DNA of 61,800 bases from an uncultured Gammaproteobacteria bacterium (GCA_947258655.1 CAMYJD010000010.1:1-61800), one strand, 5' to 3'; counted from the stretch's first letter, positions 47,476 to 61,800 are shown. Notes: a model not told the origin generated them from the sequence alone. Numbers and translations: made by a program.

Positions 47476-47915
47476 AGCAGCTCACGCCCTCCGAATAGTA
47501 TTGATCTGGTTCCATTAAATCACAACGGCCTGGATTTGAGAAGACTTTTAAATGCAGCGTTCACGCTTGTGTGGTGATAGCAAATCTATCGCAAAATGTA
47601 GTGTGAATATGCAGCGCAATACCCGCTATCGTTATATTGTTGATATAAAATCACAAATGCAAAAGTCGGCGACAGCCTGGAATTATGGTTAGATTGTTCG
47701 TGGTTGTTGATATTTGTTGATCCTGCCTGTACGTATCAAGGTAGCAGATTTTCGTAGATTAGAGCGGGGCGGGTTGTTAGCGGTGGAATTGAGTATTCCC
47801 TTGTGTTTTCATTGTATCAGTCAGGATTCCGTTATCCCCGGCAGAATATCTTCAATGAGTGGTATATAGTGATTAATTCAATGTTCTATACACAACAAAA
47901 GGCTTGCATGCATTC
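47476..47915. other. Divergent intergenic region between hydB and the L,D-transpeptidase gene
   Basis: 440 bases. Should hold the hydrogenase promoter. TTGATATAAAATCA near 47640 resembles an FNR half-site pair but with imperfect symmetry. No open frame with family features was seen. Confidence 0.45.
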
Positions 47916-49532
47916 ATGGGCAGGCTGATATTGCAGCCATTTTTTTATGCCGTTTTATTTGCGGTTTTGTGCATGAATTCGCATGCACAGGAGGGTGACT
48001 CTGACGCGCCGCAAGGGAGTTTTGCCGCTTACTTGCAGCACAACAGACTCACTGGCCAGGATGCAATATCAGTACAGATACAGCGTTATTATGAAAGCCA
48101 TCAATATCGGCCGCTATGGATGAACGAGCACGGATTGCTGCCACGTGCCTACGTACTCTATCGTTTCTTGCAGTTTGCAGAGCGTATAGGACTTGAATCC
48201 GGGGATTACGATCTTGAGCGCATAAGACGTGACTGGAAAAAACAGCAGGTGAATGACTTTGCGCTTGAGGTTATGCTGACAAAAGCGTTCATACACTTCA
48301 GTCGTGATTTGTTCCAGGGTCGATTCGATCCCCGTATAGTCGAACCTGACTGGCATATCTATCCCGGCACACTGGATATTCAGGCGCACCTGGATCTACT
48401 CGACACTGGGAAGGACCTGGAGAAACTGCTGCATGATCTGGAACCACAACATCCATCTTATGTGCAGTTACGTCAGCAGTTGCAGCGTTACAGGAAAATT
48501 GCCCAACAGGGCGGTTGGCCATTAATTCCGGATGGGCCGGTCCTGCGGCCAGGCATGCGCCATATGCAGATGCCATTGATTCGTACCCGCTTACGCATCA
48601 GTGGAGATCTGGTCAGCGGTTCACTGTCCGCTTCCAACCGTTATGATGCGGTACTGGCAGAAGCAGTCATGCGTTTTCAGGCCAGGCATGGTCTGGCGAT
48701 CGATGGGCATATCGGCGATAAAACCCGTGCCGCGATGAACGTCCCTGTGCTGCAACGTGTGCAGCAGATCCTGGTCAATATGGAACGCTGGCGCTGGTTG
48801 CCGCGCCAACTCGGGGAGCGTTATTTGCTCGTGAATATGACCGGTTTTGAATTGTATGCCGAGGAAAACGGCAAGGTCGTACTGGCGATGCCGATTATTA
48901 TAGGCAAGAAATATCGCGCTACTCCCAGCTTTAGCAGCAAGGTCCGCTATCTGGAAATCAATCCGTACTGGACCATACCTAAAAAGATTGTCCTTGAAGA
49001 CCTGATCCCGCAGCAGTTACGCCAGACGGATTATTTTGCCCGCAAGCATATCCGGGTGTTTGACGGTTGGGATGCCGACGCCCAGGAGGTCGATATTTCC
49101 ACTGTGCCATTGGAAAAACTGCGCAAGGATTATTTCCCTTATCGTTTCAGGCAGGATCCGGGTCCCGAAAACAGTCTGGGACGCATCAAGTTCATGTTCC
49201 CGAATCCCTATGACATTTATCTGCATGATACACCGCACAAGTATCTGTTTGAGCGCCGTGTGCGTACCTTCAGTTCCGGGTGTATCCGTGTCGCCGATCC
49301 TATTCGCCTGACGGCCTACCTGCTGGATGCGCCGACACATGCACGCGAGGAGCGCGTGCTCAGTCTGATCTACAGGGATCAGCACCGCAGTGTTTCACTG
49401 CTCAGGCCGATCCCGATATACCTGATTTACGCAACGGCCTGGGCCGATCGCACAGGCAATATGCATTTCAGAGAGGATATTTATCAACGTGACAGGCTGA
49501 TTCTGGAATACCTGGATACAGGTCGGATATGA
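47916..49532 (+). CDS. L,D-transpeptidase, YcbB-like
   Basis: About 538 residues from ATG 47916. Signal peptide (ending SHA), an N-terminal scaffold region (YYESHQYRPLWMNEHGLLP), a peptidoglycan-binding repeat (VMRFQARHGLAIDGHIGDKT) and the YkuD catalytic domain with HDTPHKYLFERR and TFSSGCIRV. Forms 3-3 cross-links in peptidoglycan. The pair with the next YcbK-like gene repeats the E. coli ycbB-ycbK order. An earlier TTG at 47904 adds four residues. Confidence 0.92.
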   Translation: MGRLILQPFFYAVLFAVLCMNSHAQEGDSDAPQGSFAAYLQHNRLTGQDAISVQIQRYYESHQYRPLWMNEHGLLPRAYVLYRFLQFAERIGLESGDYDLERIRRDWKKQQVNDFALEVMLTKAFIHFSRDLFQGRFDPRIVEPDWHIYPGTLDIQAHLDLLDTGKDLEKLLHDLEPQHPSYVQLRQQLQRYRKIAQQGGWPLIPDGPVLRPGMRHMQMPLIRTRLRISGDLVSGSLSASNRYDAVLAEAVMRFQARHGLAIDGHIGDKTRAAMNVPVLQRVQQILVNMERWRWLPRQLGERYLLVNMTGFELYAEENGKVVLAMPIIIGKKYRATPSFSSKVRYLEINPYWTIPKKIVLEDLIPQQLRQTDYFARKHIRVFDGWDADAQEVDISTVPLEKLRKDYFPYRFRQDPGPENSLGRIKFMFPNPYDIYLHDTPHKYLFERRVRTFSSGCIRVADPIRLTAYLLDAPTHAREERVLSLIYRDQHRSVSLLRPIPIYLIYATAWADRTGNMHFREDIYQRDRLILEYLDTGRI

Positions 49533-49676: not shown

Positions 49677-50240
49677 ATGAAAGAGTCAGTTTTAGACAAA
49701 CATCTGCTTAGTCGCAGGGGATTTCTGGGTACTTTAGTTGGGGTTTCTGGTGGGCTTGTCATGCCTCAGGCCTTTGCCTCCACTGTTCCGGCGGCCGACA
49801 GGGCGCTGACTTTTTATAATACCCATACCGGTGAAAGTCTGACCTCTACTTACTGGTCCGAGGGGCAGTATCATCTTGAAAGTCTTAAGGAAATTGGCTG
49901 GTTATTGCGCGATCACCGTGCCGATGAAGCGCATGCGATGGATCCCAAGCTATTGGATTTATTGCATTCCTTGCAGGCCCGCATCGGTAAGCAGGATGCG
50001 CCATTCCATATCATCTCCGGGTACCGCTCACCACAAACCAATGCCAAGCTACGGAGTAAATCCTCGGGTGTAGCGAAGAAAAGCTATCACATGCAGGGCA
50101 AGGCGATCGATATACGTGTTCCCGGTCATGATATCGCCCGGTTACGCCGCGCTGCAGTGTCACTGAAGGCCGGTGGTGTCGGATATTATCCCAAATCGAA
50201 CTTTATTCACCTCGATACCGGCAGACCGCGCGCCTGGTAA
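49677..50240 (+). CDS. Tat-exported DUF882/M15-family protein, YcbK-like
   Basis: 187 residues. Twin-arginine signal (SRRGFLGTLVG) and a D-Ala-D-Ala carboxypeptidase-like fold: HIISGYRSPQTNAKLR, YHMQGKAIDIRVPG and FIHLDTGRPRAW with the metal ligands in place. Likely trims peptidoglycan in the periplasm. It is 144 bases downstream of the YcbB-like gene. Confidence 0.92.
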   Translation: MKESVLDKHLLSRRGFLGTLVGVSGGLVMPQAFASTVPAADRALTFYNTHTGESLTSTYWSEGQYHLESLKEIGWLLRDHRADEAHAMDPKLLDLLHSLQARIGKQDAPFHIISGYRSPQTNAKLRSKSSGVAKKSYHMQGKAIDIRVPGHDIARLRRAAVSLKAGGVGYYPKSNFIHLDTGRPRAW

Positions 50241-50608: not shown

Positions 50609-52807
50609 ATGGACCTATTCGACAGGACATTCACTAAGCTATTGTCTCTATTCACCGTGTGCATCTGTTTACTCGGTCTTTCCTGGCACAGTCATGCAGG
50701 TATCGGCGATTTCTACGAGGTCAGCAGGGATGGCGCACGCCTGCGTACCTTGCCGTCTACCAAGGGCGTCATCATCCAGCGTCTGCAACGCGGGGATACA
50801 GTCAAGGAGTTATTACGCAAGGGCAAATGGATCAGGATCAGGCTACAGGGGCAGAACAAGGCAGGTTGGATATTTCACACAAATCTCAGGGCTGCACACC
50901 CGGCTTCAACCTCTGTGGAGGGTAGCGCTGCACTGACATCAAGCCTGGCTGAACTCGGTTACAAGGACGGAGTGTTGTTCGAAGGCATAGCGGCAAACCA
51001 TGCGCGCAAATTATATTTTCAGGTACCGCAGGATATAACAACCCGACAGGGACTGTTGCGTATCCACTATCGCTTCTCGTCATTACTGGATAAGCATTCT
51101 AATATGCGTGTCTATGTCAATGGCTTACCCAGACGTATCGTTAGTCTCGGTGGTGATGTGCATAGCGGTTGGCTGGAAATCAGACTAAAGCCGGTGGATC
51201 TGCAGGAAGCGTTTGTGCAGGTCGAGATCAGGAGTGCGATGCTGATATCAAAGGACCGCTGTTTTGATGAACGTATTGGCGGGGCATTTTTACATATTCT
51301 GCCGGACACGACATTACGCTGGCAGTTACAGGGTAAAATCGCGACTATACGCAGCTATTGGCAGTTGTTGCCGAAACGGGTACAGGTCAGCCTGCCTGAA
51401 GGGGTACTGGAGGCCAGTGTATTTCAAAATGCCCTCGGTCTGAGCCAGCAGTTGCTACACAGCGGCCACCAGGTCAGCTTTACACGCTTGCCAAAACTTG
51501 GGGACATTGTTGTTGCTCCGCGTGCAAAGATCGAGGAATGGATACGTGCCCGGTACGAGGATGACGCAGCCGATAATTTCAGCAAGTCGATCGGCAAGAA
51601 AAATCTGGCGCTGGTGAATGTAAAGGACAGACAGTTCATGGTGGTGACGGGAATACATGACAGGAAGTCACTGCGATTCCTGTCTACAGACTGGTATAGT
51701 CTGGCAGCGGCGGGCGAATACCAGCTCTTTAGTGGATTGACGCCAACAGAGCTGGAAGACGATCGTTATGCGCTGAAATTGCAGCATCTGGGTGTTAACA
51801 CGACGGCCATCGAGATGGCCCGCCAGGCATCCTGGTCAACCACGATCAAGCCCTCGCAATTACCACCGGGTCATCGTCTCGACACGGTCCGCTTGCAGTT
51901 GATTTCAGCGCCGAGCATCAACGACAGACCGTTGATGTTTTACAGTTACCTGAATGGTGTGCTGATCAATGCCGTGCGTCTCGTCGATAGCGGCGAGACG
52001 CAGGAGATTGTGCTGAAATTGCCGCAGGAACAGATGGAACGCGCCAATAACCTGCATTTTGTTGCACAACGTGACCTCTCCGATCTGGACAAGAACTGTG
52101 ACGGTGAACCTGCGCGCTTCCCGATCCAGATCAAACCAGACAGCATCGTGCAGACCAGTATCGATGATACTGCTCCGGAACGCTTTGCCGAGTTACCGGC
52201 CTACCTGTCCAGGGGGTACGACACCTATCTGCCGCAGGGCTATCTGCAGCAAGCGGAAAAATTATTGCCCTATGTGGCATCGATGATGGCCGACATGGAC
52301 TTGCCTTTGCAGACAGACCGTCTACGTTTCTATAAAGCCGAGGAAAAGATTGAACCCGAAAAGCCGTTCGTATTGCTTGGCCCGGCGCAGACGGCATTTG
52401 ATCGCCAGGGCGTGTATTTTGACAAAGGCCGTATGGATGTCGTTAATCAGCGTGGCGATGTGCTGCTGGCGGTAGACAGCCTGCCGGAAATCAGCATTGC
52501 CCAGATCGTTGCACGGGATGGTGTCTACGGTCTGTGGTTAATGCCACCGGAATCCGGGCAATTGTCGAGCATCGATGGTCTACATCTGAGCAAGGATGAT
52601 GTCGCTTTTGCCGACCAGCGCGGTGTGCTGTTGACGCTGGATAGCGACCAGCCCGGTCTATCGCGGATTGAGTATCCTGACAGTAACGGCTGGTTTGATT
52701 TATTCGGTGAATATCGTTTCTGGTATTTCGCACTTGGATGGCTGTTGTTAACCAGTCTTATCGTTTATATGTACAGACTGTCCCGCTCTCACCGTAAGAA
52801 AAAATAG
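50609..52807 (+). CDS. SH3-domain plus BcsB-like periplasmic polysaccharide-synthase partner
   Basis: 732 residues. Signal peptide (about 1-30, ending SHA), an SH3b domain (about 33-95: GARLRTLPSTKGVIIQRLQRGD ... GKWIRIRL), then a long region with BcsB-like jelly-roll and flavodoxin-like alternation (RIHYRFSSLLDKHSNMRVYVNG, GWLEIRLKP, VQVEIRSAM), and one C-terminal membrane helix (about 709-728) with a basic end. BcsB in cellulose systems guides the chain through the periplasm and holds the synthase; the same layout here, directly before the GT2 gene (47-base gap), supports that role. The N-terminal SH3 is not part of canonical BcsB and may bind peptidoglycan. Strong AAGGAG ribosome site. Confidence 0.8.
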   Translation: MDLFDRTFTKLLSLFTVCICLLGLSWHSHAGIGDFYEVSRDGARLRTLPSTKGVIIQRLQRGDTVKELLRKGKWIRIRLQGQNKAGWIFHTNLRAAHPASTSVEGSAALTSSLAELGYKDGVLFEGIAANHARKLYFQVPQDITTRQGLLRIHYRFSSLLDKHSNMRVYVNGLPRRIVSLGGDVHSGWLEIRLKPVDLQEAFVQVEIRSAMLISKDRCFDERIGGAFLHILPDTTLRWQLQGKIATIRSYWQLLPKRVQVSLPEGVLEASVFQNALGLSQQLLHSGHQVSFTRLPKLGDIVVAPRAKIEEWIRARYEDDAADNFSKSIGKKNLALVNVKDRQFMVVTGIHDRKSLRFLSTDWYSLAAAGEYQLFSGLTPTELEDDRYALKLQHLGVNTTAIEMARQASWSTTIKPSQLPPGHRLDTVRLQLISAPSINDRPLMFYSYLNGVLINAVRLVDSGETQEIVLKLPQEQMERANNLHFVAQRDLSDLDKNCDGEPARFPIQIKPDSIVQTSIDDTAPERFAELPAYLSRGYDTYLPQGYLQQAEKLLPYVASMMADMDLPLQTDRLRFYKAEEKIEPEKPFVLLGPAQTAFDRQGVYFDKGRMDVVNQRGDVLLAVDSLPEISIAQIVARDGVYGLWLMPPESGQLSSIDGLHLSKDDVAFADQRGVLLTLDSDQPGLSRIEYPDSNGWFDLFGEYRFWYFALGWLLLTSLIVYMYRLSRSHRKKK

Positions 52808-52854
52808 ATTATCAGGTATCGATATGATGACATGGATAATCAGGCAGGAGTAGC

Positions 52855-54750
52855 ATGGCGGATCACCAGGACACTGGCACGGACAGACCCGGGGAAGTGC
52901 CGCTGGGTACATTGCTCGTGGATAGCGGAGTACTCGAGCAGGATAAACTCGATCAGGCCCTGACCCTGCAGCAGCAATGGGGTACGCGGCTGGGTGACAT
53001 CCTGCTGGCCAAGGGTTGGGTGCGCGCAATTGATTTTTATCAGACTCTGGCCCGCCACAATAACCTGCCCTTCGTCAATCTGCTGAAGGAGCCGCTCGAA
53101 GCGGAGCTGCTGACCGAGGACGATATCGATTTATATACCGAATACCTTGTTGTGCCATGGCGCAGACACAATGGCCGCCTGACGGTTCTGATGGCCGATC
53201 CGGGCAAGAGAGCGATGGATTTTGCCCGGCAGCATTTTGGTAAGGATGTCGATTTTGCCGTTACCTCGAAGTTCGACATCATGTGGGAGTTGCAGCACAA
53301 TGAGGACGCCTACCTGAGCCATCAGGCGGTGTACGCCCTGTCGGAACATGATTTCGAGATGTCGGCGCGCCAGGTATTTACCGGTCCACAATTGCTGGTT
53401 ATCTATCTATTGCTGATGTTGCTATTGTTATCGCTGACCATGTTTCCTATCGCAACACTGGTTACGGTAAACATGCTGATTGCGGTTTTTCTGTTATTTA
53501 ATTTCGGTATGCGTGCAATTCTGACCTGGGTCGGAGGAGATCGGCATATCGATGTCAAGGTCACTGATAATACCGTCAAGACCCTGGATGACAAGGAGCT
53601 GCCGACCTACACAATTCTGGTGCCCATGTACAAGGAGCCCGAGGTTATCCAGTATCTGGCCGCTTCCCTGCGCCAGCTTGATTATCCGTTGTCGAAACTG
53701 GATATCAAGCTGATCCTGGAAGAGGACGATGAGGAGACGATCGAAGCGGCCAAAAAACTCGGTCTTGAGGGCATCTTCGAAATTATTCGTGTTCCGGATT
53801 CGTTGCCAAAGACGAAACCAAAGGCCTGCAACTACGCCCTGCACTTTGCCCGTGGAGAGTATGTCACAATCTATGATGCCGAAGACCGGCCCGAACCGGA
53901 CCAGTTGAAAAAGGTCATCGCAGCATTCAGGGCCGCCCCCGATAACACGGTATGCATACAGGCGCGACTGAATTATTTCAATGCCAATGAAAACTGGCTG
54001 ACGCGCATGTTCACGCTGGAATATTCGCTATGGTTCGATTTCTACCTCCCGGCCCTGGAGGCATTGAAAATACCGATTCCATTGGGAGGGACCTCGAATC
54101 ATTTCAAGATGGAAGTGTTGCGCGAGGTCGATGCCTGGGATCCATTTAATGTCACAGAGGACGCCGACCTGGGTGTGCGTATCACCCAGCTCGGTTACCG
54201 CGTCGGCGTAGTCAATTCGACCACATTCGAGGAAGCCAACAGCCGCTACGGTAACTGGATCAGACAACGCTCGCGCTGGATCAAGGGTTATATGCAGACC
54301 TACCTGGTGCATATGCGCAGTCCGATAGAGTTATACAGGAGTCTTGGTCACATCGGTTTCTGGGGCTTCCAGTTTTTCATAGGCGGGGCAGTACTCAGTA
54401 CATTACTGGCCCCCATCCTGTATTTCATGTATATCTTCTGGCTGGCAACCGATACCCATGCCTACGATATAGTATTCCCGCCACTGGTGCTGTATATCAG
54501 TCTTATTAATCTGTTGGTAGGTAATGGTTATCTTATTTACCTGTCAATGCTGGGCGCATTCAAGCGCCATCTTTATTACCTGATTCCGTTTGGATTGACC
54601 ATGCCGCTGTACTGGCTGATGATGTCAGTCGCTGCCTATAAGGCATTATGGCAGTTGATTCATAATCCGTTCTATTGGGAAAAGACCTTGCATGGTATAA
54701 CCAGCTATAATCCTGATAACAACGAGCACAAGGCCGAAGATCGTGCATAA
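52855..54750 (+). CDS. GT2 polysaccharide synthase with N-terminal MshEN-like (c-di-GMP) domain
   Basis: 631 residues. Residues 14-70 hold two 24-residue units separated by five residues (PLGTLLVDSG... and RLGDILLAKG...), the layout of the MshEN/T2SSE-N domain (PF05157) that binds c-di-GMP in MshE and in NfrB-type synthases. Two membrane helices (about 175-225) follow, then a processive GT2 domain with LILEEDDEE, DAEDRPEP (341-348), TEDADLG (434-440) and QRSRWIKG (471-478), and further C-terminal helices. The Q-x-x-R-W motif marks cellulose-synthase-like processive enzymes. The first unit has PLG where Arg-Leu-Gly is common, so binding needs testing. Its stop overlaps the next gene. Confidence 0.9.
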   Translation: MADHQDTGTDRPGEVPLGTLLVDSGVLEQDKLDQALTLQQQWGTRLGDILLAKGWVRAIDFYQTLARHNNLPFVNLLKEPLEAELLTEDDIDLYTEYLVVPWRRHNGRLTVLMADPGKRAMDFARQHFGKDVDFAVTSKFDIMWELQHNEDAYLSHQAVYALSEHDFEMSARQVFTGPQLLVIYLLLMLLLLSLTMFPIATLVTVNMLIAVFLLFNFGMRAILTWVGGDRHIDVKVTDNTVKTLDDKELPTYTILVPMYKEPEVIQYLAASLRQLDYPLSKLDIKLILEEDDEETIEAAKKLGLEGIFEIIRVPDSLPKTKPKACNYALHFARGEYVTIYDAEDRPEPDQLKKVIAAFRAAPDNTVCIQARLNYFNANENWLTRMFTLEYSLWFDFYLPALEALKIPIPLGGTSNHFKMEVLREVDAWDPFNVTEDADLGVRITQLGYRVGVVNSTTFEEANSRYGNWIRQRSRWIKGYMQTYLVHMRSPIELYRSLGHIGFWGFQFFIGGAVLSTLLAPILYFMYIFWLATDTHAYDIVFPPLVLYISLINLLVGNGYLIYLSMLGAFKRHLYYLIPFGLTMPLYWLMMSVAAYKALWQLIHNPFYWEKTLHGITSYNPDNNEHKAEDRA

Positions 54751-56245
54751 GGCAGACAGGCTGGAGAGTTTCCTTGTTTTTATCGTCGTGACGGTGTTGT
54801 TGTGTCTTTGCAGTATCTGGTTGCTGTCACATAATTATGTCAATGAATTTGCCATGAGTCGTTGGGCCAAGGTCCTCTCTGTGCTGGATTCCCCCGAGAT
54901 ACGTATCGAACACCTGGGGCTGATATACCCGCATTTTCCAGTGTATATCCTGATGCCGTTCTATTACTTGCCGGGTCTTGATTCCGGTGCCGCCCCCTAT
55001 TTCGCCTCGCTACTGGTTGGTGCGATATTGATTGGCACATGGAATTTTCATCTTGCTGAAAAAAAGTACAGTCTGCGTGTGCGCATATTATTGATCCTGT
55101 TCGTATGCAGTCATCCGTTTTTCCTCTGGGGTGTTTTGACCGGAGCGCAACATGCCCTGAGTCTGTTGATGTTCTATTGGTTGTATCTGGCCCTCGTACG
55201 TCTGGTCAATGTCCAGGATGTGCGTTCCTTCATCATGGTCGGCCTGGCGCTGGCGCTATATTTTTTCATTGATGAGCGTACCTTTTATCTGTTCATTGCA
55301 TTGCTGCCATTGATATCGATCATTGCGCCACAGCGTATGTTGTCGGAATCCACGTCCAGTGTGTATTTGATTATTGCGGCGCCGCTGGCGATCTCGGTCG
55401 CATCCTGGGCCTACCTGAACTGGATCTTTCATGATGATGCCGGCCTGTTCCTGAGTTCCGCAGATTCGTCTTTTCGTGGTGTGTGGCAGGATACACCCCA
55501 TGTGGACTGGCTCAGGGCCTATGGCGGCGACTTTATCGTGCCAACTCTGGTCACCGGATTGTATGCATTGCTGGCATACCCGGTGTTGCTGTGGTTGCTA
55601 TATCATGCCAAACGTCATCGAATCCTGCTGGGTAGCACGCTGGTTCTGTTGTTACATCCGGTGGTGGCATCGGGTCTCGCGACCGGCAACTATTTTCTGT
55701 CACATCCGATGGATATGATATTCCTGTTCAGTGCCGGAATTATGGCCGGTGTCGTACTGATTCCCAGAGAGACCAGGCGCGCGCGGATTAGCCTGATACT
55801 GCTATTGGCGTTAAGCAGCGTGACTGCATGGTTTGTATTTCCATGGTATCAGACAACGGATATGCAACGCTGGCGGACTGCAGTCATGGGGGAATCCCTG
55901 CAGGATACGAGCCCGGGCGATATCGAACTGGGGTTATGGCTGAAACAAAACCGGCAGCTTACATTGCTCGACGACAAGGCGGCTTACCGGGTAATCGTCG
56001 CCAGGGGTGATGCCAGACATCTGGTCCTGCCATTCTCAAGCGAATACAAGGTCAATCTGAAATATCAGTGGCCGAAGATTGAGCAGATAGCGGTTTCGGA
56101 GCCGGGGTATGTCCATGATGGCCAGGATTACCTGAACCAGCGTTTTCCCGAGCTATACGCAAACGGCATGCCGGGTTATACACTGGTGTATGATTATATG
56201 CACTGGCGAGTCTATCGTCGCCTGTCAATGAGGGCTGGTACATGA
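54743..56245 (+). CDS. Polytopic membrane protein, GT-C-like
   Basis: 500 residues with about ten hydrophobic helices and a hydrophilic C-terminal end (about 395-500). No clear catalytic Asp/Glu motif was identified, but size, helix pattern and place next to a GT2 synthase suggest a GT-C-type glycosyltransferase or polymer-modifying enzyme. The GTG start overlaps the GT2 stop by eight bases and the gene overlaps the next by four, showing tight coupling. Confidence 0.7.
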   Translation: MHKADRLESFLVFIVVTVLLCLCSIWLLSHNYVNEFAMSRWAKVLSVLDSPEIRIEHLGLIYPHFPVYILMPFYYLPGLDSGAAPYFASLLVGAILIGTWNFHLAEKKYSLRVRILLILFVCSHPFFLWGVLTGAQHALSLLMFYWLYLALVRLVNVQDVRSFIMVGLALALYFFIDERTFYLFIALLPLISIIAPQRMLSESTSSVYLIIAAPLAISVASWAYLNWIFHDDAGLFLSSADSSFRGVWQDTPHVDWLRAYGGDFIVPTLVTGLYALLAYPVLLWLLYHAKRHRILLGSTLVLLLHPVVASGLATGNYFLSHPMDMIFLFSAGIMAGVVLIPRETRRARISLILLLALSSVTAWFVFPWYQTTDMQRWRTAVMGESLQDTSPGDIELGLWLKQNRQLTLLDDKAAYRVIVARGDARHLVLPFSSEYKVNLKYQWPKIEQIAVSEPGYVHDGQDYLNQRFPELYANGMPGYTLVYDYMHWRVYRRLSMRAGT

Positions 56246-57258
56246 GTCGTATGCCGGCCACCATTCAGATGCTGATAAGTAGCGCATGCATGCTGTTGTC
56301 TTTATCAGGTGTATATGCACATCATGATGCTAGTAATTTTCAGGGAGTAAATTACCTGCAAACGACGACGGTATCGCTCAATTCCTTTGCCTCGATGCAA
56401 TCGCTACACAAAATAAAGGACAACGGAGCTGATACCGTTGCACTGATCGCATTCATGCAGCAGGACAAGCCTGCGTCGAGTCGGATTCAGCCATCAAATG
56501 CGGTGACCGATGATCAGCTGACGCAAGCCATTGCCGATGCCCATGACATCGGCCTGCGAGTCATCCTCAAGCCACAAATTCTGGTGCCCGGTTCGTGGGC
56601 AGGAGAAGTTAATCCGGGTACGGATGCCGGTTGGCGACAATGGTTTGAACATTATCAGAAACTGCTGCTGCGTTATGCGCAGATCGCACAACGCTATAAA
56701 GTTGAAAAGCTGGTGGTGGGCACGGAATTGCGGCATGCGGCTATACAGCCGCAGTTTCGCCAATTGATAATTGAAATACGCAAAATCTATTATGGTGAGC
56801 TTAGCTATGCAGCACATGGTACAGCCGGTTTCAAACAATTTCCATACTGGGATTTGCTCGACTCGACCAGTCTGACCTTATACCCGTCACTGGGAAACGA
56901 CTGGAGTATTGAGCATGTTACCCGGGTTATAACGGACAAGATTGCAGAAATCAAACAGCTGAGCGAGGCCATCGACAAGCCGTTCTGGGTGGCTGAAGTC
57001 GGCATTTCCTCTCGGCAGGGCAGTTACAGTCATCCGTGGCTGGTGGCGGACCGTCTACAAGGCGTACCGGATGCCAATATGCAGGCAAAGGTACTGTCCC
57101 TGTGGTTGAAGAATCTGCAGCATTCATGGATTCATGGTGTATTGATCTGGAGCTGGTTCAGTGATGTAGAGCAGGGTGGCCCGGCCGATACCGGCTTCAC
57201 GATACAGAACAAATCGGCTGAAGCGGTTGTAAGCTGTTACTGGAAAAAGAAATGCTGA
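56242..57258 (+). CDS. Exported clan GH-A TIM-barrel glycosidase-like protein (GH113-like)
   Basis: 338 residues with a signal peptide (about 1-26). Barrel features: GVNYLQ at strand 1, HDIGLRVILKPQI, VVGTELRH with a candidate acid/base Glu162, and FWVAEVGISS with a candidate nucleophile Glu252; then GVLIWSWFSD. The two glutamates sit on strands 4 and 7 as in clan GH-A. GH113 mannanases are the closest group I can name, without certainty. In this operon it may trim the glycan in the periplasm. Its stop lies three bases from the end of a convergent gene inside a hairpin. Confidence 0.82.
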   Translation: MSRMPATIQMLISSACMLLSLSGVYAHHDASNFQGVNYLQTTTVSLNSFASMQSLHKIKDNGADTVALIAFMQQDKPASSRIQPSNAVTDDQLTQAIADAHDIGLRVILKPQILVPGSWAGEVNPGTDAGWRQWFEHYQKLLLRYAQIAQRYKVEKLVVGTELRHAAIQPQFRQLIIEIRKIYYGELSYAAHGTAGFKQFPYWDLLDSTSLTLYPSLGNDWSIEHVTRVITDKIAEIKQLSEAIDKPFWVAEVGISSRQGSYSHPWLVADRLQGVPDANMQAKVLSLWLKNLQHSWIHGVLIWSWFSDVEQGGPADTGFTIQNKSAEAVVSCYWKKKC

Positions 57259-57277
57259 TGCCTATAAGGCATCAGCA
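57253..57277. repeat. Perfect hairpin across the two stop codons of convergent genes
   Basis: TGCTGATGCCT-ATA-AGGCATCAGCA is an exact 11-bp inverted repeat. It contains the stop codons and last sense codons of both the glycosidase gene (plus) and the phosphodiesterase gene (minus). There is no adjacent T run, so it may act as an RNA 3' end stabiliser or bidirectional attenuator. Confidence 0.8.
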
Positions 57278-58209
57278 CTGAATAATGTTTTGATGCGCTC
57301 AATGATGCGGCCATCCAGTCCCTTCGGGGCAGGGGTGTCCAGCAGGTACAGAATAGTAGGCGTTATGTCATAGATAGATACGTCGCTATCCGTACGAAGT
57401 TCGGGAGAAATGGCGGGGTGAACAACCATTAGCGGTATGCTCAGGTCCTCGGGGCGTTGGTGCCAATGAGTCGTATCCTTGCCGCCATGGTCCGAGGTTA
57501 CGATTAACAGGGTATTGTCGGCATAACGGCTGTTTTTGATGAGGTTGTATATGTGGCCTACGGCCTCATCGGCAGTCGTAACGGCCTGGTTGAGATATTC
57601 ATCGCTCATCCAGCCATGTTTATGTCCGGCGCTGTCGGGTTCGCGGATATGAATGAAACTCAGGGAGTAGTCCTGTGTTGTCCAGACGCGGGAAAATTCG
57701 GCGGCTACATTCGCGGCACGTGTCTGGTTGTAGTCTATGCCGTTGTGGCCCCGGCCATAGAGGTAGTTATGCGAGTCCGGTGGAAACAGGTACTTTAGTT
57801 TTTCCTTGGAAAACAGGGCGGCGGTGGTCTTGCCATGTTTTTTCAGGATCTGCATGACGGTAGGGTATTTTATATAGCTGGGCAGGGGTTTGTTTTTTGT
57901 GATCTTGTGTCGTTTGACATCAAGACCGGTCAGCATCGAGGTGTGACTGGGTAGTGTAACAGAACGTTTGATGGTCTGCGCATTCGGGAAATAGAGTCCG
58001 GCATGGCTCAGGGCGTACAGGTTTTTGGCATTTTTACTGTTGATCGCATCCGGCCTCAGGCCATCGATACTGATCAGTACTATGCGCTTTACCGATGCTT
58101 TACCGGATACGGAAGGGGCTATAAGTGTATTTGAACATGATGCTAATAGCGTCAGTACGAATGTATAGGCAAAGAAGCGCAGTAATTTATCAGTGATGAT
58201 TTTATGCAT
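57262..58209 (-). CDS. Lipoprotein type I phosphodiesterase / alkaline phosphatase-superfamily enzyme
   Basis: 315 residues with lipobox LLASC (Cys25). Metal and catalytic residues of the nucleotide pyrophosphatase/phosphodiesterase group: ISIDGLRPD with Asp49, SVTLPSHTSM with nucleophile Thr85, REPDSAGHKHG and SDHGGKD. Predicted to hydrolyse a phosphodiester in the periplasm; the substrate could be a phospholipid headgroup, nucleotide or phosphorylated glycan. It is convergent with the synthase operon and divergent from the barrel/CotH operon, with 84 bases between starts. Confidence 0.88.
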   Translation of the reverse strand: MHKIITDKLLRFFAYTFVLTLLASCSNTLIAPSVSGKASVKRIVLISIDGLRPDAINSKNAKNLYALSHAGLYFPNAQTIKRSVTLPSHTSMLTGLDVKRHKITKNKPLPSYIKYPTVMQILKKHGKTTAALFSKEKLKYLFPPDSHNYLYGRGHNGIDYNQTRAANVAAEFSRVWTTQDYSLSFIHIREPDSAGHKHGWMSDEYLNQAVTTADEAVGHIYNLIKNSRYADNTLLIVTSDHGGKDTTHWHQRPEDLSIPLMVVHPAISPELRTDSDVSIYDITPTILYLLDTPAPKGLDGRIIERIKTLFSADAL

Positions 58210-58293: not shown

Positions 58294-59136
58294 ATGATAA
58301 TGTTTAATTCGATTAACAAATGGATGGCTGCTTGGGCCCGGTTTCTACTGATTTTCAGCATGCTTGTTACTTGTGTTAGCGCACAAGCAGGCGGTTGGTT
58401 GCGTTCGGAAGGCGAGCATCGTTATGGTGCCCACCTGCAAGGCTCGACTTCCGACAAGTCCTGGGACAGGGACGGAAATGACGAGATATCGAGCTGTACA
58501 TCGAAGAATCGATCATTAACGCATGATTATGAATACGGCTACTCCTATTACCGCACCCTGTTTGGCAGAATCAGCATGTCGAGCTCTGAGTGTGGTAACG
58601 ATAAGGTCAGCGGTTTTAGTGATCTCTACCTTGGTGTACGTGGCAGACTCAAACTGTATAAAAACGGATATGCATGGGAAGCTATACTTATCATACCTAG
58701 CGGTTATGATAGCGATCGCAGTAATCGTCTGGGTTATGGCGAAGTGGGCCTCGACCTGGGTATATATGGTACCAGCAAGATTTCACAGAAGTCTTCGATC
58801 AACTACGGTGGCAGTCTGCGTTTCTGGGCCGGCGCCCCGGCAGACCAACTGCGTACGAAGCTAAGATGGTCATACAGGCATAGCGATAAATGGTCATACA
58901 ATGCAGCTCTGGCCGGTAACTTTTCACTTAACAATAGCGATTCGGCGCCATTCAATTCCCTTACCGGGGATTTCGAATCCGAATTCGATGTGATTCGTGC
59001 CGAGATAGGGGTGCGCCGCCGCTTGAGCAGAAGACTGGGAGTGGGTGCCGGCGTATTCAAGACCCTGTGGGGTCGAGATACCAGTCAGCGTGAGGGTTTG
59101 TTTATTAATATGGGTTATGTGTGGGGTAGAAGATAA
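58294..59136 (+). CDS. Outer-membrane beta-barrel-like protein
   Basis: 280 residues. A signal peptide (ending SAQA) and alternating amphipathic strands rich in Tyr, Gly, Ser and Arg (YGYSYYRTLFGRISMSS, YGEVGLDLGIYGTSK, KLRWSYRHSDKWSYN), ending LFINMGYVWGRR, as expected for an outer-membrane barrel. No named family recognised. It could be a glycan-export or anchoring pore. It ends one base before the CotH ATG. Confidence 0.72.
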   Translation: MIMFNSINKWMAAWARFLLIFSMLVTCVSAQAGGWLRSEGEHRYGAHLQGSTSDKSWDRDGNDEISSCTSKNRSLTHDYEYGYSYYRTLFGRISMSSSECGNDKVSGFSDLYLGVRGRLKLYKNGYAWEAILIIPSGYDSDRSNRLGYGEVGLDLGIYGTSKISQKSSINYGGSLRFWAGAPADQLRTKLRWSYRHSDKWSYNAALAGNFSLNNSDSAPFNSLTGDFESEFDVIRAEIGVRRRLSRRLGVGAGVFKTLWGRDTSQREGLFINMGYVWGRR

Positions 59137-59137
59137 T

Positions 59138-60823
59138 ATGAGTGTAGGTAAATCGAATAAAGCTGTTGTTATGCTGTCGCTGTTCTGCGCCCTGTTCATG
59201 TACTGGAATGTATCCCATGCGCAGGACACGATTCCGGTCGTTTCGCTGCACCTGGAAATGAAGGCGCGTGACGCGGATGTGCTGTTCAAAAAAGAACCCT
59301 ACGACCGCTCGACATTTCCGGTCCAGTTGTTTCACGACGGTGAGCGCCTGTCCGGGCGGATAGAAGTCAAGGGCAGTTTCAGCAGGAATTTCGATAAAAA
59401 GTCACTGAAAATAAAACTCGATAAAGGACAGCTTTGGCGTGGCCAACGACGTATTGCCTTGAATGCCATGGCCACCGATGCATCGATGATGCGTGAGTGG
59501 CTTGCCTGGGACCTGGTGCATACACTGGGTATGGCCGCGCCCAGTGTCAATTTTACCCGCCTGTATATCAACCGGCGTTACATCGGTATGTTCTTGCATA
59601 TAGAGTGGATCGATCCCGATATGCTGGCGCGTTTCGGACTCGGCAACGACGGTGAATTTTTTCATCCGCGTGACAGTGGATTTTGTGGTGATCTGAGCAC
59701 GCAATCTGTCACTAAGCGCGAACGCTGTTGGCTGAAATTATCACCACGTGATCAGGACTTTTCAGCGCTCGAGCAATTAACCGAGCAGTTGCAGGAAATG
59801 GCGGTGGAAGATTTCGATACATTTCTGGAGCAGCATTTTGATGTAGACTCTGTCATCAACTGGATGGTGACGAATATAATCACCAGTAATGGTGATACCT
59901 ATAATAAAAACTATTTTATCTATTTCAGTCGTGACAAAGAGCGCTGGGTGATCATTCCATGGGATTTCGACCTGTCCTTTGGCAGAAACTGGGATGAATT
60001 CCTCAAATATCCGGACAATATACTGAATGATAATTTCCAGTATTACTATCCGCTTGAGCTAGGTCTGCCCAATCCGCTGAAAGACAAGCTGCTGAAGAAT
60101 CCGGTATTACTGAAGCGTCTAAAGCAGAAGCTCAGAGGGCTGATGGGTATGCCTGTCGAAGGCTACTCGGCGACCCCGGTGTGGTTTAAGCCATCGGTTA
60201 TGCACGACAGGATCGATGCGTTGACGGCCATGCTGGTCGGGGATTTGCATCGTGAACGTTATACCGCGACGAGCGAGCAGAAGTTGCGCGAACATGCACG
60301 GGCACTGAAAGACTATGCCAGCTTCCGTTATAATTACTTGCGCAAGACAGTCCTTGGCTCCACAGACTGGGTAGCAGATCGGGCCAGTGTGCATATCGAC
60401 AAGGCCGGCGACACCGAGTCCTGGGTGGATGGTTTTGGATTAACGTTGGGGAGCATGCAGGCACTAAGCCTGAATGGTGCGGCGGATATCAGTACCGAAG
60501 TCGAGAAGCTGGCCATACCGAGGTATGTACCCGGGGGTGTGGATGTACATCGCTGTATCAAGCGTACCTGGTTCCTGATCGATAAAACACCGAATAGCAA
60601 TATGAAGATAAACCTGTCCTGGCAATACCTGCAGGAGAATTCGAGAAGAAATGAAATTGGCAAGAAGCTGAAGGACGAAAGCAAACTCGAACTGTGGGTC
60701 CTGTATTATGATGAATGGAAGCGTCTGCCTACAAGCGTGAACCCGGTGTCGAATGTGATCTCAACCACTAATCTGGATATCAGGGGCGGCAGATATTATC
60801 GTTTCGTTGCCTGTCAGCGTTAA
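59138..60823 (+). CDS. Exported CotH-family protein kinase
   Basis: 561 residues. Signal peptide (ending SHA, about 1-28). The CotH domain (PF08757) shows KKSLKIKLDKG (nucleotide region), NAMATDASMMREWLAWDL, YIGMFLHIEWID, SNGDTYNKNYFIY (Asp253, Asn256) and IIPWDFDLSFGRNWDEF (Asp276, Asp278), the metal and catalytic set described for Bacillus CotH. A beta-rich C-terminal region (about 430-561) is unassigned. CotH proteins are ATP-dependent kinases of proteins such as CotB/CotG; here, in a Gram-negative glycan locus, the target is unknown. A longer frame into the barrel gene is discarded. Confidence 0.9.
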   Translation: MSVGKSNKAVVMLSLFCALFMYWNVSHAQDTIPVVSLHLEMKARDADVLFKKEPYDRSTFPVQLFHDGERLSGRIEVKGSFSRNFDKKSLKIKLDKGQLWRGQRRIALNAMATDASMMREWLAWDLVHTLGMAAPSVNFTRLYINRRYIGMFLHIEWIDPDMLARFGLGNDGEFFHPRDSGFCGDLSTQSVTKRERCWLKLSPRDQDFSALEQLTEQLQEMAVEDFDTFLEQHFDVDSVINWMVTNIITSNGDTYNKNYFIYFSRDKERWVIIPWDFDLSFGRNWDEFLKYPDNILNDNFQYYYPLELGLPNPLKDKLLKNPVLLKRLKQKLRGLMGMPVEGYSATPVWFKPSVMHDRIDALTAMLVGDLHRERYTATSEQKLREHARALKDYASFRYNYLRKTVLGSTDWVADRASVHIDKAGDTESWVDGFGLTLGSMQALSLNGAADISTEVEKLAIPRYVPGGVDVHRCIKRTWFLIDKTPNSNMKINLSWQYLQENSRRNEIGKKLKDESKLELWVLYYDEWKRLPTSVNPVSNVISTTNLDIRGGRYYRFVACQR

Positions 60824-60829
60824 GCGACC

Positions 60830-61800
60830 ATGACGGAATCCGCCAAACGGCTCACGCTGCTGGAGAAATTGATACGCCTGTTTACGCCGGTAAAACCCGG
60901 CGAAGGCAAGGCCGCATTGTTGTTGCTCGTGCAAGCCTTCATACTGTTGTTTGCGTATTACCTGTTGAAGCCGGCGCGTGAATCGCTGCTATTGGCGGAA
61001 AACAGTGCCGAGATCCGCAGCTATGCAGTCGCATTTCAGGCACTGGTGCTGCTGTTACTGATGCCTGCCTATAATGTGCTGTTTCGCCACTACAAACATA
61101 ATCGCAGCAGGATCTATATCTGGGTCACGTTATTCTTTGTCAGTAAAATCTGTTGTTGTTCTATGTGCTTGGGCATACAGATATCAAGCTCGGCATCGTG
61201 TTTTTTATCTGGCTTGGTGTGTTCAACGTCATGGTCGTGGCGCAGTTCTGGGCCTTTTGCGCCGACCTTTATAATGTCGAAAGCGGCCAGCGCTTGTTTG
61301 TCATTATCGCAGTCGGTGCATCACTGGGCGCCCTGATGGGCGCGAACTTTTCCAAGCAGGTCATCAATTATACAGGGCCATTGGGTCTGATGCTGCTGGC
61401 GATTGGCCTATTATGCGTGACCATTGTGCTGGGCCTGCTGGCGAGCAGTAAGCTGCCCAGAGAAGACCGTAGTCATAGTCGTTTGTCCAAGGAAGAGTCC
61501 ATGTGGATACCGGGTGGCTTTCGCCTGGTGCTGTCAGACCGCTACCTGCTGCTGATCGCATTATTTGTCGTGCTGCTGAACTGGATCAACAGTACCGGTG
61601 AGTTCATTCTGGCCAAGATGGTCGTCGATCACGCCGAGGCGTTGATTGCGGCTGGATCTGAACAGAGCAAGGGTAATCTTATCGGCGCCTTCTATGGCGA
61701 TTTCTATACCTGGGTGAACCTGTTCAGCCTGCTGTTTCAGTTGTTTCTGGTGTCGAGGATCTTCAAATACTTCGGGGTCAGGGCCGCGCTGTTTATCTTG
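60830..61800 (+). CDS. ADP/ATP-carrier-family (TLC-like NTP exchange) transporter, frameshifted, 3' end beyond window
   Basis: ATG at 60830, six bases after the CotH stop. The first ~105 codons give a hydrophobic carrier start (VKPGEGKAALLLLVQAFILL, YYLLKPARESLLL, the TLC-family opening). The frame then shifts at the A run 61145-61148: upstream frame reads VSKICCCS, while the frame displaced by one base reads LLLFYVLGHTD, IWLGVFNVMVVAQFWAFCADLY and onward, open to the window edge. One extra A would restore a continuous protein. A sequencing or assembly deletion is as likely as a real mutation. Relatives swap ATP for ADP or transport nucleotides. Confidence 0.83.

Follow-up and report, generated by a model that had tools for sequence, protein, structure and literature searches.

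An Xag/Sfz-family exopolysaccharide synthase cluster with a predicted c-di-GMP input domain in an uncultured gammaproteobacterium

The xagABCD genes of Xanthomonas form a biofilm operon (PMC3609779). Genes for BcsB, XagB, XagC and XagD are common to stalk-forming iron oxidisers (Kato 2015, PMC4643136), and in Mariprofundus the cluster has been named sfz1-6 and its members proposed as stalk genes (Koeksoy 2021, PMC8250860). In the latter work the N-terminus of Sfz2 was published as an EpsE-like secretion domain, in which RxxD and RxxxR motifs were sought, Sfz4 was published as a member of glycoside hydrolase family 10 (GH10), and Sfz3 and Sfz5 were listed as unknown (PMC8250860). We analysed a 61,800-nucleotide stretch of DNA from an uncultured Gammaproteobacteria bacterium (GCA_947258655.1, CAMYJD010000010.1:1-61800; hereafter the window) and compared one of its gene clusters with these loci, with the NfrBA-YbcH system of E. 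coli and with the BcsAB cellulose synthase. The window cluster is almost beyond doubt a member of the Xag/Sfz family, an exopolysaccharide synthase type very likely regulated by cyclic di-GMP (c-di-GMP).

Four open reading frames (ORFs) were re-found on the plus strand, with a 47-base gap followed by overlaps of 8 and 4 bases, in agreement with the initial annotation, which had described four tightly packed genes. They encode a Sfz1-like, BcsB-like periplasmic partner (50609-52807; PF08239, PF03170), a Sfz2/XagB-like synthase that joins an MshEN domain (residues 16-151) to a membrane glycosyltransferase of family 2 (GT2) (52855-54750; NF053729, PF05157, PF13632), a Sfz3/XagC-like membrane protein with a modelled GT-C fold (54743-56245) and a Sfz4/XagD-like exported glycosidase (56242-57258). 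The initial annotation described a complete inner-membrane glycan machine within 50609-57258; the four genes are real, but an outer-membrane protein and a CotH protein had been left out. By sequence comparison, the conserved cluster extends past 57258 to a Sfz5/XagA-like outer-membrane beta-barrel, a candidate export channel (58294-59136, plus strand), and to a Sfz6-like exported protein with a CotH kinase fold (about 59135-60823, plus strand; PF08757, E 3.1e-60), whose ORF is open from 59045, with an ATG and signal peptide at 59135. The order in the window is sfz1 to sfz6, interrupted between sfz4 and sfz5 by a phosphodiesterase gene on the opposite strand.

We scanned a synthase alignment against 84,980 named genomes and then compared the neighbouring genes; the neighbour counts are lower bounds because a greedy selection of ORFs masks some genes where a locus is rich in GC. 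The window synthase is about 57-62% identical to those of Mariprofundus, Ferriphaselus and Xanthomonas. The core also occurs in these three genera, Thiobacillus, many alphaproteobacteria, Synergistota, Aquificota, Thermodesulfobacteriota and others, and since the same gene set recurs in several phyla, a chance arrangement is excluded. All six genes are colinear in the window, Mariprofundus PV-1, other zetaproteobacteria, the related locus L013 and a sister genome, and the features of Xag/Sfz membership are present: a synthase of the XagB/Sfz2-type MshEN-GT2 architecture, adjacent XagC/Sfz3 and XagD/Sfz4, a BcsB-like Sfz1, Sfz5 and the CotH protein Sfz6. The initial annotation had not placed the combination in a named system and had counted a match to one as a refutation; this part of it fell: the locus is the xag/sfz cluster (PMC4643136, PMC8250860, PMC3609779), a polysaccharide system already named. 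Among three further genomes of the host genus, the synthase was found in one only. On a conjugative plasmid of Geobacillus stearothermophilus (L007, 5516-12313), ManC, BcsB, MshEN-GT2 and a GT39-annotated protein form a unit, and the system therefore moves horizontally.

The window shares with sfz1-6 of Mariprofundus and sfb1-4 of Ferriphaselus the same genes in the same order (six, or four in Ferriphaselus), a GT2 of the same clade and the same TLC carrier neighbour, but, judged by Cyc2, its host is no iron oxidiser, and the phosphodiesterase gene is an insertion. With xagABCD it shares a 58-60% identical XagB, the GT-C (XagC) and GH113 (XagD) proteins in the same order, and a relative of its outer-membrane protein at the XagA position, whereas BcsB does not adjoin xag in nearly all Xanthomonas loci, the outer-membrane protein comes first rather than fifth, and CotH is lacking. 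In Ferriphaselus, xagA was reported as not found (Kato 2015, PMC4643136), and we saw none in the R-1 locus either. The NfrBA-YbcH system (NGR, the phage N4 receptor glycan) resembles the window in its MshEN-GT2 fusion and outer-membrane barrel partner; it differs in the C-terminal position of MshEN in NfrB, in the lack of BcsB, GT-C, GH113 and CotH, and in its proposed substrate, UDP-N-acetylmannosamine (UDP-ManNAc), which is made by WecB, an enzyme without a match in the host genome. Membership in NfrB was rejected on score and domain order: the window synthase reached 40.7 bits against the cut-off of 1170 of the NfrB equivalog NF008411, and its MshEN domain is N-terminal. BcsAB shares with the window a processive GT2, a BcsB partner and c-di-GMP control (predicted in the window), but PilZ, the GH8 enzyme BcsZ and the tetratricopeptide-repeat barrel BcsC there stand against MshEN, GH113 and a small 12-strand barrel here, and the GT-C and CotH proteins are extra in the window. 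The ydaJKLMN genes of B. subtilis and pss of Listeria are further candidate analogues that pair BcsB with a GT2.

The N-terminus of the 631-residue synthase carries two motifs of 24 residues each with a five-residue spacer, at residues 16-39 (PLGTLLVDSGVLEQDKLDQALTLQ) and 45-68 (RLGDILLAKGWVRAIDFYQTLARH). The synthase clears the cut-off of NF053729, the NCBIfam model of the c-di-GMP motif, with 54.9 bits against 38, and solved MshE, PilB and PilF domains were matched by sequence, most with E values of 1e-6 to 1e-21; the Pfam scan of the synthase found no PilZ. The initial annotation was sound in describing the two units, in setting MshEN in the place of PilZ and in citing NfrB as the precedent for an MshEN-GT2 protein. 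These profile matches correct the published annotation: the Sfz2 N-terminus is a predicted MshEN c-di-GMP domain, and because it is read in this way, control by c-di-GMP would be directly explained. In the GT2 domain, the DxD-like DAED (341-344), TED (434-436) and QRSRW (471-475) motifs were found, and these catalytic motifs are retained in essentially all of 89 relatives. In the GT2 tree the nearest grouping of the window is with a Piscirickettsiaceae metagenome-assembled genome (MAG), and the wider clade takes in the stalk formers Mariprofundus and Ferriphaselus. Distant GT2 relatives (33-46% identity) were also seen on plasmids of Frigoribacterium, Neorhizobium, Nonomuraea, Mycobacterium and Pseudorhodobacter (L008-L012); they do not show the complete MshEN pattern of two motifs, and most lack the other cluster genes.

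The BcsB-like partner has a signal peptide, an N-terminal SH3_3 domain and a C-terminal transmembrane helix, and its assignment, like that of the MshEN domain, is made on profile evidence. Pfam found SH3_3 at residues 41-92 (28.5 bits against a cut-off of 27) and BcsB at residues 110-241 (E 5.8e-11), which agrees with the SH3-BcsB partner originally proposed. Its relatives precede the synthase gene in about 60 of the 89 loci, and the Mariprofundus and Ferriphaselus counterparts are BcsB by Pfam. Whereas the BcsB protein bears the SH3 domain in the window, a CotH protein (Sfz6) of Mariprofundus (L016:14540-19447) has six SH3_3 stretches, as if a wall-binding module had moved between the two partners. 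CotH relatives were found downstream of the outer-membrane protein in 12 other loci; the CotH counts come from the direct BLAST table, since an iterated CotH hidden Markov model (HMM) picked up BcsB rows.

The third gene had no Pfam match. Its AlphaFold2 model, built on the family alignment, reached a mean predicted local distance difference test score (pLDDT) of 92 and a predicted template-modelling score of 0.91, and its best structural match was ArnT (5f15; Z 18.3, root-mean-square deviation 5.3 over 415 residues), with many other GT-C enzymes ranking below, in line with the GT-C guess of the first reading. In the model, the protein is an ArnT-like GT-C fold, and its relatives occur in about 70 of the 89 loci. 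A candidate GT-C acid, E35 in the first periplasmic loop, is present in most rows of the CotH clade (by eye). Weighing against a catalytic role, just about half of all family rows keep it (alignment, by eye), so that catalysis by this protein is tentative. A role in decorating or guiding the chain in the periplasm is possible but doubtful.

The fourth gene product, which had been called an exported GH-A glycosidase, is indeed a glycosidase, and its family could be sharpened to GH113 (PF22612; E 1.1e-43, 150 bits against a cut-off of 27). E162 and E252 align with the catalytic glutamates of the solved beta-1,4-mannanases 5ylh, 4cd6 and 3civ, which are its closest solved relatives, and the glutamate pair is kept in 40 of 40 relatives. 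By Pfam and solved structures, Sfz4 is a member of the beta-mannanase family GH113 and not of GH10. The outer-membrane protein was modelled by AlphaFold2 as a 12-strand barrel (pLDDT 87), most like the COG4313 channel 4rl8 (E 6e-11) and the FapF amyloid exporter in Foldseek. An HMM made from the Sfz5-type proteins of the window clade matches the Xanthomonas protein at the XagA position (E 9e-13 to 3e-4), and on this ground Mariprofundus Sfz5 and XagA are probably one family. The models further suggest that the published unknowns can be annotated, Sfz3 as a GT-C fold and Sfz5 as an outer-membrane barrel.

The Xag polymer is still "to be established" according to a review (PMC8042644), and the initial annotation held that the product was not predictable, allowing a glucose- or hexosamine-based glycan. 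Several observations now favour GDP-mannose as the precursor. GH113 is found in 40 of the 89 related loci; of 397 genomes in a phylum sample, 17 have a close synthase, and 16 of these gave a strong GH113 match, as did 4 of the 380 others. ManC, which serves GDP-mannose synthesis, occurs in 8 related loci (7 of the 8 above the TIGR01479 cut-off), and these belong to Bacillota, Synergistota, Aquificota and alpha-, beta- and zetaproteobacterial lineages. The same 1.49 Mb of related loci contain no GalU, no NDP-sugar dehydrogenase and a single WecB; if ManC is taken, as a rough estimate, to occur once or twice in 4 Mb, fewer than one would be expected by chance. A phosphomannose isomerase gene adjoins sfz in zetaproteobacteria, and the host genome, which is 98.7% complete, has ManC and GalU but gave no WecB match. 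In X. campestris, whose xag polysaccharide is uncharacterised, the extracellular beta-1,4-mannanase ManA is oppositely regulated and is implicated in biofilm dispersal (PMC3528676). Taken together, GH113, ManC, the phosphomannose isomerase, the absence of WecB and the Xanthomonas mannanase favour a mannose backbone, and a mannose-based polymer, either a beta-linked mannan or a mannose-containing glycan made from GDP-mannose, is a reasonable, finely balanced proposal from these gene contents. The glucomannan synthase gmsA of R. leguminosarum is a possible further lead towards a mannan product.

Several points weigh against mannose. The co-occurrence with GH113 rests on 17 genomes in four families, mostly Mariprofundaceae; the GH113 enzyme could act on another polymer, and ManC could serve other exopolysaccharide genes nearby. 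Stalk fibrils have been reported as an acidic polysaccharide with carboxyl groups, unlike a plain mannan. A Nitrospinota MAG (L060, 880-8192) carries BcsB, a BcsG-type protein (PF11658), an unidentified gene, the outer-membrane protein and MshEN-GT2 in one cluster; BcsG is a cellulose phosphoethanolamine transferase, which suggests a modified glycan in that lineage, and products may therefore differ between lineages. The same BcsG is consistent with a glucan, whether cellulose-like or a mixed-linkage beta-glucan from UDP-glucose, with MshEN replacing PilZ. The GT2 domain is also nearest to cellulose synthase among solved chains, with a BcsA match in the PDB, and the host possesses GalU. A glucan is nevertheless rather unlikely: GalU was not seen in the related loci against eight ManC, the hydrolase of the cluster is GH113 with no cellulase-type glycoside hydrolase there, and it is a mannanase that is implicated in the dispersal of Xanthomonas biofilms. 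As for membership in BcsAB, the synthase scored 51 bits against the cut-off of 699 of the cellulose synthase equivalog TIGR03030. The claim that the product is unpredictable gives way to GDP-mannose as the favoured precursor, and the glucan is kept as its rival.

The sequence of the MshEN domain makes c-di-GMP gating of the synthase very likely. All hydrophobic and glycine positions of the two motifs are intact, the curated motif model was passed, and the host genome has about 40 GGDEF matches. Motif 1 has proline at position 1 and glutamine at position 24, and motif 2 has arginine and histidine at these positions. Two of these residues count against c-di-GMP binding, the proline in place of the guanine-stacking arginine of MshE and the histidine in place of glutamine, and so does the erosion of the motifs in most alphaproteobacterial relatives. 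On the rival reading MshEN is only structural and has lost c-di-GMP binding, which we consider improbable given the intact positions and a published relaxed motif that permits proline at position 1 (PMC5013675). Histidine at position 24 lies outside that relaxed motif; it is the commonest residue there in proteins with both motifs (20 of 35). In 27 mostly alphaproteobacterial loci, a receiver protein, in some with a weak GGDEF domain, is encoded 3' of the GT-C gene (for example L038:12391-13356 and L044:12316-13290), and input control in the alphaproteobacteria may have shifted to this protein.

For sfz/sfb it has been proposed that the cluster makes the organic matrix of twisted stalks of iron oxyhydroxide, and we considered this reading for the window. 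All six sfz genes are present in order and the GT2 belongs to the clade of Mariprofundus and Ferriphaselus. Two different Cyc2 queries, from Ferriphaselus and Mariprofundus, gave no match in the host genome, while the same queries found the zetaproteobacterial Cyc2. The same core in Xanthomonas, alphaproteobacteria, Geobacillus, Synergistota and Aquificota implies that stalk formation can be no more than one specialised use. A stalk matrix in this host is distinctly improbable, and a stalk-only role was rejected as the general function on the Cyc2 result. As the host lacks a detectable Cyc2, the full sfz cluster is, by this genomic measure, not confined to iron oxidisers. A ManNAc-based polymer is very improbable: NfrB is a characterised MshEN-GT2 thought to use UDP-ManNAc (PMC8669469, PMC8669472), but UDP-ManNAc is disfavoured as precursor by the missing WecB match in the host and by WecB in only one related locus, and NfrB has its MshEN at the opposite end and other partner genes.

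The gene between sfz4 and sfz5 (57262-58209, minus strand) encodes a lipoprotein-like type I phosphodiesterase of the AlkP superfamily (PF01663, E 2.2e-28) and converges on the GH113 gene, with a 13-bp terminator-like stem on the minus strand (57251-57279) at the point of convergence. The sister genome has an ORF resembling it in size and strand; no match was found in the other related loci compared, and we saw it only in the host genus. Downstream of sfz6, the 5' part of a gene for a TLC-type ATP/ADP carrier (61153-61800, plus strand; weak TLC/MFS match) runs into the contig end. The neighbour is full length at the same place in L013, the sister genome has a 439-residue membrane protein there, and a TLC carrier next to sfz has also been described for Mariprofundus (PMC8250860). 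Directly upstream of the cluster lie two envelope genes, for an L,D-transpeptidase with a scaffold domain (47904-49532) and a DUF882/M15 peptidase (49677-50240), which are not conserved with it.

Overall, the window almost certainly encodes an Xag/Sfz-type, synthase-dependent exopolysaccharide system, and the full reading, in which a mannose-containing polymer is its most likely product, is somewhat more likely than not. In this model, c-di-GMP would bind the two MshEN half-motifs and activate the GT2, which would polymerise a sugar nucleotide and extrude the product to BcsB. In the periplasm the chain might be decorated or guided by the GT-C protein; GH113 would trim it, and the XagA/Sfz5 barrel would export it to serve in adhesion, in biofilms or in fibres. 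A more tentative proposal is that the loci of the several phyla make up one family of mannan synthases gated by c-di-GMP, with GDP-mannose as substrate, BcsB and GT-C proteins handling the chain, GH113 trimming and export through a 12-strand FapF-like barrel. The system itself was already named; what is new here is the GDP-mannose proposal, the three annotation corrections and the full sfz set in a host with no detectable Cyc2. The presence of all six genes in a host lacking a Cyc2 match makes sfz genes alone unsafe as markers of stalk-forming iron oxidisers. The family view joins xag, sfz and the relatives of other phyla with GDP-mannose as the predicted substrate and, with the corrected c-di-GMP input domain and hydrolase family, makes the Xag polymer and the chemistry of iron stalks biochemically testable. 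If the mannan synthase proposal is true, both the Xag polymer in Xanthomonas biofilms and the iron-stalk backbone would be identified, and the family would be the mannan counterpart of the BcsAB cellulose synthase.

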